From Candidatus Parcubacteria bacterium (GTDB taxonomy: Bacteria > Patescibacteriota > Patescibacteriia > Patescibacteriales > UBA12075): a stretch of DNA of 15,139 nucleotides. Every line of letters starts with the position of its first letter. Position 1 is the first letter of the stretch. Location of the stretch: contig JAGLNE010000030.1 in assembly GCA_023139655.1 (NCBI GenBank), positions 1 to 15,139 of the forward strand. Reading direction: 5' to 3'. The notes under the pieces are model-generated. The model saw only the letters and a list, made by a program, of their open reading frames with translations, ran no database searches and was not told the origin of the DNA. Of the stretch, positions 11,473-14,640 are shown piece after piece. Position numbers and translations under genes: made by a program.

Positions 11473-11623
11473 AATTTTCAATTTACAAATTTTCAATTTA
11501 CAAACAATTTACAATGATTTAATTTAAAAATTTTCAAACAAAAAATTTATTCGTTTTTAAAACATTGAAAAATTAATAAATTAATTCATTGTTTGAAAAT
11601 TGAAAATTGAAAATTCGTAAATT
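11473..11623. repeat. AT-rich inverted repeat between rplQ and rplM
   Basis: Left arm (aattttcaatttacaaattt, caaacaatttacaatg) and right arm (attcattgtttgaaaattga, aattcgtaaatt) are inverted copies, with a few AT-rich bases in the middle. It fills the gap and ends on the stop codon of rplQ. Confidence 0.85.
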
Positions 11624-11972
11624 ATACTAACTCTATCTGTACTATTTTCGCACCATCGCCTTGCCGGTTATTTAACCTTATAATCCTAGTATAACCGCCT
11701 TTTCTGTCCTGATAACGCTTGCCGATCACTTCCATAAGCTTTTTAACCGCGTTTGGCTGAGGTAAGAGCGCGATCAAGCGCCGACGGCTGCTTAAATCGT
11801 TCTTTTTGGCAATGGTAATTGATTTTTCCACCAAGCTTCTAACCGCCTTAGCCTTAGCCTCGGTTGTACTCACTTTCTCGTATATTAAAACACTGGCCGC
11901 TAGGTTACGCAGCATCATCTCCCGTGGAGCCTTTTTACGGTCTAAAATTGTTTTTTTTATTCTATGCCTCAT
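11622..11972 (-). CDS. rplQ: 50S ribosomal protein L17
   Basis: L17 of 116 residues, close to the normal length of bacterial L17. It lies near the peptide exit region of the large subunit. Seen: MRHRIKK at the start, a shorter form of the usual MRHRxxGRKL; the RKKAPREMMLRNLAASVLIYEKVSTTEAKAKAVRSLVEK stretch spread over residues 12-50, matching the family's R..L..NL...L..HE.I.TT..KAKE.R...EK pattern; and GGYTRIIRLNNRQGDGAKIVQIELV (about 92-116), the GGYTRI.....R.GD.A....IEL ending. It follows rpoA as in most bacteria, 80 bases downstream. The UAA stop lies at the edge of the AT-rich repeat that separates it from rplM. No Shine-Dalgarno is visible before the ATG. Confidence 0.97.
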   Translation of the reverse strand: MRHRIKKTILDRKKAPREMMLRNLAASVLIYEKVSTTEAKAKAVRSLVEKSITIAKKNDLSSRRRLIALLPQPNAVKKLMEVIGKRYQDRKGGYTRIIRLNNRQGDGAKIVQIELV

Positions 11973-11992
11973 GCTCTAGTTGCTTAGGGATT

Positions 11993-12058
11993 AGTTAATT
12001 AGTGATTAGGCTAAAATATCGCCCCTAATTAACCAATTAACTATTTAACTAATTAACT
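11993..12058. repeat. TTAGTTAATTAG-type repeat between rpoA and rplQ
   Basis: Short units of ttagttaattag on the left face cctaattaaccaattaac on the right, giving an AT-rich hairpin. The stop codon of rpoA lies in its edge. A short related piece occurs at about 8811-8826, upstream of a membrane protein gene. Confidence 0.7.
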
Positions 12059-12979
12059 CTCCTTTTTAGGTCTTCCCCTCTTCTTCTTAGGTTCATCCTT
12101 GTCCGCCGTAGCCTTGGCAGAGGAGGGCTCTTTTTCTGAATCGTCTTTATCCTCAGACACGCCGCGGCGCGTCTCTACAATTTCTTCAACATCCGACTCA
12201 TCTTTTTCTCCTTTCTGCTTTCTGTTTTCTCCTTTCTCACTATCTGTTTTCTGTTTTCTATTTTCTGTTTTCTCCTCACTACCACCAACCAGCGCGGCAA
12301 ATTGCTCCAGCAAGATCGCTACTGACTGCTCAAAAGCCTCCTCAGGCGTTATAGTACCATCGGTAATAATATCTATGGTCAAACGATCCCAATTGGTCAT
12401 TTTACCCACCCGGACATTATCAACCGAAATCCCGGCCTTTAATACCGGGGTAAATATGGAATCCATTTCAATATAACCAATCTCCTTTTCTTTCTTTTCC
12501 TGCGATTCGCCGGCCCGACTTTCAATCGTAGTATATCCCCGGCCCTGCTCAACCTGAAGTTCTAAATTTATGCTGCCCGACATATCGGTTATCTGGCAAA
12601 TTTTCAGCTTTGGGTTAGCAATTTCAACTTGGGCATTTTTCTTAAAATCAGCCGCGGTTACTTGTTTTTTGCCATGGACTTTCAATTCCAATTTTTCGGT
12701 TTCCTTGGAAAAAACTTTTATCCGCAGTTCTTTTAGTTTTAAAATTATTTCCAACACATCTTCCTTAACGTTTGGTATGGTCGTAAACTCGTGGTCAACT
12801 CCTTTTATTTTTATACCTACCGGCGCCGCCCCAGAGAGTGAAGACAAAAGTACTCGCCTAAGCGAATTGCCAAGCGTAACCCCATAGCCCGGGAACAGCG
12901 GCTCAATAATTATAGAGCCTTGGTTTTTGTCTTTACCGCTAATGTAATCTTGTTTTTTAGCTAAGGCGATAGTATTCAT
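12053..12979 (-). CDS. rpoA: RNA polymerase alpha subunit lacking the alpha-CTD, with AT-hook-like tail
   Basis: The alpha subunit dimerises through its N-terminal domain and scaffolds beta and beta-prime. Seen: an intact alpha-NTD, residues 1 to about 232, with the IIEPLFPGYGVTLGNSLRRV signature (24-43), LSSLSGAAP, the GYTTIESRAG insert, IGYIEMDSIFTPV, VRVGKMTNWDRLTIDIITDG and TPEEAFEQSV. After VGGSEE at about 235 the usual (HhH)2 alpha-CTD, about 80 residues that bind UP elements and activators, is absent. A charged tail of about 75 residues replaces it. It contains repeat-like ENRKQK units (239-256), VETRRGVS (268-275), SSAKATADK (286-294) and ends with KKKRGRPKK (298-306), an AT-hook-like motif. 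The gene is complete from ATG to TAA. Only 80 bases separate it from rplQ, so no hidden CTD follows. Promoter recognition through AT-rich DNA by the tail is a hypothesis. Confidence 0.96.
   Translation of the reverse strand: MNTIALAKKQDYISGKDKNQGSIIIEPLFPGYGVTLGNSLRRVLLSSLSGAAPVGIKIKGVDHEFTTIPNVKEDVLEIILKLKELRIKVFSKETEKLELKVHGKKQVTAADFKKNAQVEIANPKLKICQITDMSGSINLELQVEQGRGYTTIESRAGESQEKKEKEIGYIEMDSIFTPVLKAGISVDNVRVGKMTNWDRLTIDIITDGTITPEEAFEQSVAILLEQFAALVGGSEEKTENRKQKTDSEKGENRKQKGEKDESDVEEIVETRRGVSEDKDDSEKEPSSAKATADKDEPKKKRGRPKKES
12098..12127. repeat. In-frame SSAKATADK-coding element in rpoA
   Basis: The segment gtccgccgtagccttggcag encodes SSAKATADK. From memory, this peptide and its DNA recur in unrelated proteins of Patescibacteria; only one copy is in the window. 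Confidence 0.55.
12156..12179. repeat. In-frame GACGCGCCGCGGCGCGTC-type palindrome in rpoA
   Basis: The element gccgcggcgcgtctctaca encodes VETRRGVS of the tail. A near-identical copy is in rpsK at 14501-14524. Confidence 0.82.
12208..12275. repeat. In-frame CTGTTTTCTG-type repeat in the rpoA tail
   Basis: Units such as tctgctttctgttttctcc recur on the plus strand and read as KTENRKQK and ENRKQKGEK on the coding strand (RpoA residues about 236-258). It is the same type as in the rpsM-rpsK gap. Confidence 0.7.
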
Positions 12980-13746: not shown

Positions 13747-13952
13747 AATTTACAATTTTCAATTTTCACCCAAAGGGCACTTCGCAATTTTCAAACAATG
13801 AATTAATTTTCAATTTTATAATTTTAAAATTAAATCATTTCAGCCCAAGGCTGATCCGCCTTCTACGTACGTGAATTATCCACGACAGAAATTGGCGGAG
13901 AAAATTGTTTGAAAATTCGTAAATTGAAAATTCTATAAAGAATTCGTAAATT
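13747..13952. repeat. AT-rich inverted repeat between rpsK and rpsD, with nested insert
   Basis: The same aattttcaa / ttgaaaattcgtaaatt arms as at 11473-11623. A GC-richer block, cccaaagggcacttcg, interrupts the left arm, and the centre carries gcccaaggctgatccgcc and ggcggag, which pair with each other in part. It looks like repeats nested within a repeat. Confidence 0.82.
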
Positions 13953-14640
13953 AAACCCTTCTTGGTTTTTTCGGCCGGCATCCATTATGCGGTATCGGAG
14001 TAATGTCTTTAATTGATGTAACAATCAATCCATTATTATTTAAGGCCCGGACCGCTGACTCACGGCCAGTACCTACGCCGCGGATAAATACACTTACTTC
14101 CTGAAGGCCATATTCTTCCCTTGCCTTACCCACTGCAATTCTGGTTATGATCTGCGCTGCATAAGGGGTTGATTTTTTCGGCCCCCTAAAACCGGCAATC
14201 CCGGCGCTCGCCCATGATAACACATTCCCGCTCATATCGGTTAAAGTAACTATCGTATTATTGTAAGTGGACTTAATATAAGCCTTGCCAATACTAACGC
14301 GCTTGGAGGTTTTCTTTTTCTTTTTAATTGCCTTTTTCTTACTTTTAAGCTTCTTAACTTCTGTCTTTCTTTTCTCCATCTTTTTAACTATATCTTCCGG
14401 CAATTCTTCCAGATTCTTAATCCCCTTTTCTTCTTTTTCAGACTTTTCTTTAATAGACTCCACATCTTTCTTTTTAACATCTTTATCGGACGCGCCAGAA
14501 GACGCGCCGCGGCGCGTCTCTACATTCTCTTTTTTTCCCTGTCCTGAGCCTGTCGAAGGGTCAACCTTAACATCAGCTGACTTATCATCAACCTTTTTAT
14601 CTTTGCCTTTATCTTCTGTTTTCTTTTTATCTTCGCCCAT
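13951..14640 (-). CDS. rpsK: 30S ribosomal protein S11 with long N-terminal extension
   Basis: The S11 core occupies about residues 112-229: [66 protein letters not shown], and the [11 protein letters not shown] end, all family hallmarks. S11 sits on the 30S platform near the mRNA exit. Escherichia coli S11 is about 129 residues, so roughly 110 residues are extra at the N-terminus. They are Lys/Glu/Asp-rich, low complexity and probably disordered. They include DPSTGSGQ (27-34) from a TGAGCCTGTCGAAGG element and [12 protein letters not shown] (40-51) from a palindromic element also present in RpoA. The start at 14640 gives the longest frame; Met88 (MEKRKTEV) is an alternative that would give 142 residues. 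The whole extension remains open, which favours genuine translation. No Shine-Dalgarno is visible at either start. Confidence 0.93.
14501..14524. repeat. In-frame GACGCGCCGCGGCGCGTC palindrome in rpsK
   Basis: Perfect 18-base palindrome followed by tctaca; encodes VETRRGAS of the S11 extension. Same element as in rpoA at 12156-12179. Confidence 0.85.
14538..14562. repeat. In-frame TGAGCCTGTCGAAGG element in rpsK
   Basis: The segment cctgagcctgtcgaaggg encodes DPSTGSGQ of the S11 extension. From memory, this short element is widely dispersed in bacterial genomes; only one copy is in the window. Confidence 0.6.

Follow-up and report, generated by a model that had tools for sequence, protein, structure and literature searches.

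The C-terminal domain (CTD) of the α subunit is the standard contact of bacterial RNA polymerase with upstream DNA and with activators, and AT-hooks bind A/T-rich minor grooves. The nearest mechanistic precedent for an RGRP motif at a promoter is WhiB7, which, according to passages of PMC6282962 and PMC10245118, holds region 4 of sigma and places the motif in an A-tract just upstream of the −35 element. That α can lack its CTD has been described as well: a passage of PMC8321222 states that the domain was lost in Parcubacteria, and names microalgal chloroplasts as another case of a CTD-less α. The term 'RNA polymerase' was absent from the main text of the reference cited there (PMC4508563), which appears to be cited in that passage for lifestyle. 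Loss of the CTD in Parcubacteria is already in print; for a terminal KKRGRPKK motif on RpoA, a literature search found no report.

The rpoA gene of the window and its C-terminal tail

The window, that is, the whole stretch of 15,139 nucleotides analysed, carries rpoA among ribosomal-protein genes. The features of this region are as follows.

11622–11972, minus strand: rplQ, the next gene after rpoA.
11973–12052, no strand: rpoA–rplQ gap of 80 bases.
12053–12979, minus strand: rpoA, 308 amino acids.
12053–12061, minus strand: terminal residues ES and stop codon.
12062–12088, minus strand: terminal AT-hook-like motif KKKRGRPKK, the sole such site in the assembly, with residue and codon conservation in relatives.
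12092–12289, minus strand: charged linker (residues 231–296), mostly predicted to be disordered, partly made of dispersed genomic repeats.
12092–12134, no strand: a third dispersed repeat, giving the linker peptide SSAKATADK, with a copy on contig C134 (86% identical).
12155–12186, no strand: a second dispersed repeat, giving the linker peptide VETRRGVS, with a further copy at 14500–14531 in the rpsK extension (91% identity).
12241–12274, no strand: dispersed repeat copy in the linker (ENRKQK-type peptide), with a 34-base copy on contig C103 (100% identical) and many partial copies.
12290–12979, minus strand: complete N-terminal domain (NTD) of RpoA (residues 1–230), supported by Pfam, TIGR02027, solved-structure alignment and AlphaFold2.

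The α subunit encoded here has an intact NTD, lacks the CTD and ends in a tail predicted to be disordered. The completeness of the NTD, as originally predicted, was borne out. In a Pfam scan, PF01000 and PF01193 scored above the cut-off (PF13656 below it); TIGR02027 matched with 240.7 bits (cut-off 227.8) and covered positions 2–241 of its 298; and the domain aligned over its full length to solved bacterial α subunits (best 6wvj, query 16–256). In the AlphaFold2 model, pLDDT was 90 or higher at 168 residues and fell below 50 at residues 246–295.

Neither Pfam nor NCBIfam, which both recover the NTD, found any trace of the helix-hairpin-helix CTD (PF03118) in the protein, which confirms that the domain is missing. 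A CTD displaced by a frameshift was dismissed, as it had been in the original prediction, on the basis of the 80-base gap to rplQ and of a six-frame search of the genome from which the window derives. This search gave no PF03118 match at E ≤ 10 in an assembly that is 89.65% complete, and thus no sign of a CTD-like protein elsewhere in the genome, the finding that would have spoken against the prediction; in the control, the same search gave a match in 14 of 14 genomes, 9 of them over the cut-off. Because of the 89.65% completeness, a separate CTD gene may possibly have been missed in the assembly.

That a tail ending in KKKRGRPKK follows the NTD was correct, but its length is 78 residues (231–308) instead of about 75, a minor correction. 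The protein ends PKKKRGRPKK-ES. The linker DNA had 38 matches in the genome, itself included, and its odd peptides ENRKQK, VETRRGVS and SSAKATADK, as well as its length, are due to dispersed repeats read in frame. Short dispersed repeat families occur in this genome (12092–12274 and 37 other matches), some of them in frame within coding genes of the window. The rpsK gene (13951–14640, minus strand) encodes ∼107 additional N-terminal residues ahead of the S11 domain. Compared with RpoA of a genome of the same genus (G001), the linker differed and the end was kept.

The α-CTD in the class and the phylum

The class to which the window belongs is presumably the one labelled ABY1; related records carry the names Falkowbacteria and Veblenbacteria. 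RpoA was matched in 274 of 285 genomes sampled from the class, and those matches that were listed ended between positions 210 and 242 of the 298-position profile. In total, 180 tails were inspected in full. Fifty, the window's own included, came from the order of the window, where RpoA was matched in 53 genomes and three with fragmented or partial matches were left out, and 130 from the rest of the class (130 of 256 genomes with an RpoA match, taken by rank of that match, with some rows skipped). For part of the latter, matches to [KR]RGRPxK were already known when the tails were picked; loci fetched for their motif were kept outside the 180. None of the 180 tails contained a CTD. The CTD did score over the cut-off in 29 of the 285 genomes, yet no RpoA NTD lay beside it at the 29 loci fetched (one per genome; six further matches fell outside this set). 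Loss of the α-CTD is thus a trait of the class in this sample.

In a sample of the phylum, PF03118 was matched at E ≤ 0.01 in 316 of 379 genomes, 9 of them among the 33 of the class and 307 among the remaining 346 (these in-class and out-of-class genome numbers are hand tallies). Thirty of the CTD loci outside the class were fetched; in 23, the CTD was on RpoA, and the rest were other proteins or were cut by a contig end. Outside the class, 39 of the 346 genomes had no PF03118 match at E ≤ 0.01, and the α-CTD may perhaps have been lost in other lineages as well.

Ten of the CTD-bearing proteins of the class were scanned for further domains. Eight were fusions of Sigma70_r4 and RNA_pol_A_CTD, 278–467 amino acids long as open frames (L273, L274, L275, L276, L277, L280, L282 and L033), which may supply an α-CTD in trans or may be regulators. 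The other two are small proteins in which the RNA polymerase α-CTD was the sole Pfam match (E ≤ 0.01):

L043:1387–1791, minus strand: 135 amino acids as open frame.
L279:1390–1986, minus strand: 199 amino acids as open frame.

None of 17 genomes with a CTD in another protein had a GRP[KR] tail, compared with 30 of 128 others (Fisher p = 0.024, kinship not corrected). Mutual exclusion of the two is not claimed, because one genome fetched for its motif (G619) bears both.

The terminal motif: conservation, loss and occurrence elsewhere

GRP[KR] was present in 46 of the 180 class tails. Each position of K-K-R-G-R-P-K-K was occupied by the majority residue in 43–46 of these 46, while their codons were scrambled: all four glycine, all four proline and all six arginine codons were used. 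The slightly stricter [KR]GRP[KR] was found in 45 of 180 tails, compared with a mean of 0.017 and a maximum of 1 in 2000 residue shuffles, so that chance from composition was discarded as the source of the motif. Among the 119 homologues of the best-120 list, which is slightly biased by the presence of the motif in the query, 81 had GRP[KR] within the last 25 residues, followed by 3–8 residues to the end. The linker preceding the motif was rich in glutamate and lysine and 20–73 residues long (median 37), and class tails as a whole varied widely. Judged by this pattern of residues and codons, the KKRGRPKK end is a selected motif, conserved at the protein level.

The reading of KKKRGRPKK as an AT-hook was upheld for the GRP core and the basic flanks but not for the curated Pfam cut-off: AT_hook (PF02178) matched residues 298–306 of the window protein with 11.4 bits (cut-off 17.4). 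Of 50 hand-picked homologues, 25 matched it with E values of 1 or less, the lowest being 0.021. Because the curated cut-off was missed, the motif is called AT-hook-like here and not a member of the Pfam family.

The original prediction had further supposed that loss of the CTD coincides with an RGRP end. This was not the case: the remaining 134 of the 180 RpoAs, all of them without a CTD, also lacked GRP[KR], and loss of the CTD is therefore wider than the motif. GRP[KR] ends were found in 22 of 50 RpoAs from the window's order (its own included) and in 24 of 130 from the rest of the class. Even close relatives without both CTD and RGRP, which had been named in advance as evidence against the idea in its strict form, were found: within the window's family, 6 of 9 sampled RpoAs had GRP[KR], and G003, G008 and G009 had neither. 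Among near homologues, the motif was intact in P0002, changed from RGRP to GGRP in P0003 (84% identical; KKKGGRPKK) and gone from P0004 (80%), which ends KEPKKVKK. Other families were uniform in having it (f183, 8/8; f20, 4/4; f209, 4/4; f7, 3/3; f227, 3/3; f201, 3/3). By tail-state rules of our own definition, 61 of the 180 tails were lysine-rich without RGRP, 13 had softened forms such as RGKAKK and RGRKPK, and 25 were shorter than 25 residues, 16 of these in families f23 and f32. In these two families (e.g., L101, L109 and L171), RpoA stops almost at the end of the NTD, and the tails are among the shortest. Whatever the function of the motif, it is dispensable, since 134 of 180 CTD-less RpoAs lack it and 25 have tails of fewer than 25 residues.

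On a tree of the NTD (180 class members and eight outgroups), GRP[KR] required 19 changes, compared with a mean of 41 and a minimum of 35 in 500 shuffles, and softened ends adjoined RGRPKK tails (L004 with L011; L086 with L111 and L153). A two-state model placed the motif at the root of the class, followed by repeated loss. The motif may go back to the ancestor of the class, with frequent later loss or softening to polylysine, but this ancestry is to be taken loosely because the gain rate in the model sits at its lower bound (zero). The GC content of the rpoA locus did not clearly separate the tail states.

In the 1.19-Mb assembly of the window, a coding pattern for RGRPxK occurred at one site, 12062–12079 (the reversed control also gave one match). 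Across the 285 class genomes, [KR]RGRPxK was matched 98 times, compared with 42 for the reversed control. By hand tally, 48 of the 98 were at the C-terminus of RpoA (two, in G624 and G631, assigned by coordinates and frame alone, unfetched), 6 were in the N-terminal extension of an S9-like gene and 44 were elsewhere, the last being approximately at the level of the control. No excess was seen in the 346 genomes outside the class (39 matches versus 45 for the control, by hand tally, as was the control count of 42). The S9-like gene, named from its end without a family search, lies near rpoA in families f180 and f201 (L063, L065, L072, L097, L107 and L139). The motif was thus found chiefly on RpoA. 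RpoA is nevertheless its main and not its sole bearer, because it also lies in the last 20 residues of no fewer than six further, longer open frames from class genomes (L215, L217, L235, L237, L238 and L257). The neighbouring L17 and L13 never carried [KR]GRP[KR] (0/176 and 0/173, respectively); with this and the single site in the genome, a proteome-wide habit of RGRP ends was rejected.

Candidate functions of the tail and comparison with known systems

If the end of the tail is an AT-hook-like anchor, it would provide each α with a contact to upstream DNA in the way the AT-hook of WhiB7 does beside the −35 element; this is the favoured reading and is given about an even chance. The NTD dimer assembles the polymerase as usual, and the flexible tails end in KKRGRPKK, which would make one tethered hook per α. 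Such hooks could reach the DNA just upstream of −35, as in WhiB7, and could thereby restore a weak, activator-independent upstream contact. We infer DNA binding by the tail, its preference for the minor groove, its upstream position and any effect on promoter strength. Convergent replacement of the minor-groove contact of the CTD by the tail is plausible, and the idea survives in a weakened form: the AT-hook-like end is selected yet dispensable and is borne chiefly by RpoA, in a lineage with CTD-less α subunits. The fuller scenario is somewhat doubtful: an ancestor of the class would have dropped the α-CTD and regained contact with the minor groove through an AT-hook at the end of α, resulting in a polymerase with two built-in AT-hooks, and later lineages would have softened the hook to polylysine, lost it, or kept a CTD only in trans on fusions with a sigma-region-4-like domain.

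Promoters of rnpB were compared between genomes with GRP[KR] tails (n = 11) and others (n = 15). Over the 22 bases preceding the predicted −35 element, neither AT content (p = 0.60) nor the length of AT runs (p = 0.40) differed, which lent no support to replacement of the CTD contact, in a weak test comprising one promoter per genome, predicted starts and few genomes. TTGACT is common to many rnpB promoters of the order (L380–L409), and a T-run, a spacer of 17 bases and a TATAAT-like box often come after it; in the regions upstream of tmRNA, no clear promoter was discerned by eye.

This lack of AT enrichment counts in favour of a rival reading, in which the tail is a polyampholyte with a terminal lysine/arginine patch and non-specific affinity for DNA or nascent RNA, RGRP being one solution among several, with no preference for the minor groove or for AT. 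The 61 lysine-rich tails without RGRP, the 13 softened ones and the proximity of softened forms to RGRPKK tails on the tree point in the same direction. A mere need for charge, however, would not retain glycine and proline over deep branches, and Gly-Arg-Pro is fixed in 46 of 46 tails (a set chosen by this very feature), amid flanks that hardly vary and codons that are scrambled; a generic basic end is considered rather unlikely. Less likely still, the motif might dock to something else, such as a Nus factor, some other protein, or the ribosome or rRNA when transcription and translation are coupled. Such docking would fit the position of rpoA among ribosomal-protein genes and the same peptide on the S9-like extension in families f180 and f201, but L17 and L13 at the same loci are devoid of the motif, and in WhiB7 it is AT-rich DNA to which RGRP binds, according to passages of PMC6282962 and PMC10245118. 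Finally, the tail might have drifted after loss of the CTD, with expansion of repeats and RGRPKK arising by chance. The linker does consist partly of dispersed repeats, and tails vary widely; yet the count of 45 tails far exceeds that in residue shuffles, the motif persists on deep branches despite synonymous scrambling, there is but one site in the genome, and the 98 versus 42 matches and the 19 changes on the tree are likewise unfavourable, which makes a neutral end most improbable.

Should the AT-hook-like anchor prove correct, the upstream contact of a lost α-CTD could be re-made by a motif of eight residues, which would hint at how the polymerase of a minimal genome gains promoter strength without a domain for docking activators. 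The window protein is filed as a variant RpoA and its motif as AT-hook-like. The RGRP core with lysine/arginine flanks is presumably akin to the HMGA-type AT-hook (PF02178; match at residues 298–306), from which it differs in being a single copy, below the Pfam cut-off and not part of a multi-hook array. With WhiB7/WblC of Actinobacteria, as far as these are covered by the passages named above, it shares the RGRP core, the basic flanks, the position near the C-terminus and a host protein that is part of the transcription initiation complex; WhiB7, however, is a separate Fe-S regulator on sigma region 4, whereas the motif described here belongs to the α chain itself, and its DNA binding is putative. 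The CTD-less α subunits of reduced genomes (Tremblaya and Hodgkinia) have likewise kept the NTD and lost the CTD, but the passage in PMC8321222 on such subunits mentions no tail of this kind, whereas many members of the class have kept a selected terminal basic motif. Like α of E. coli and B. subtilis, RpoA of the window has a complete NTD followed by a flexible linker and is encoded ahead of rplQ; unlike these, it has no α-CTD, and its long linker, predicted to be mostly disordered, ends in KKRGRPKK.
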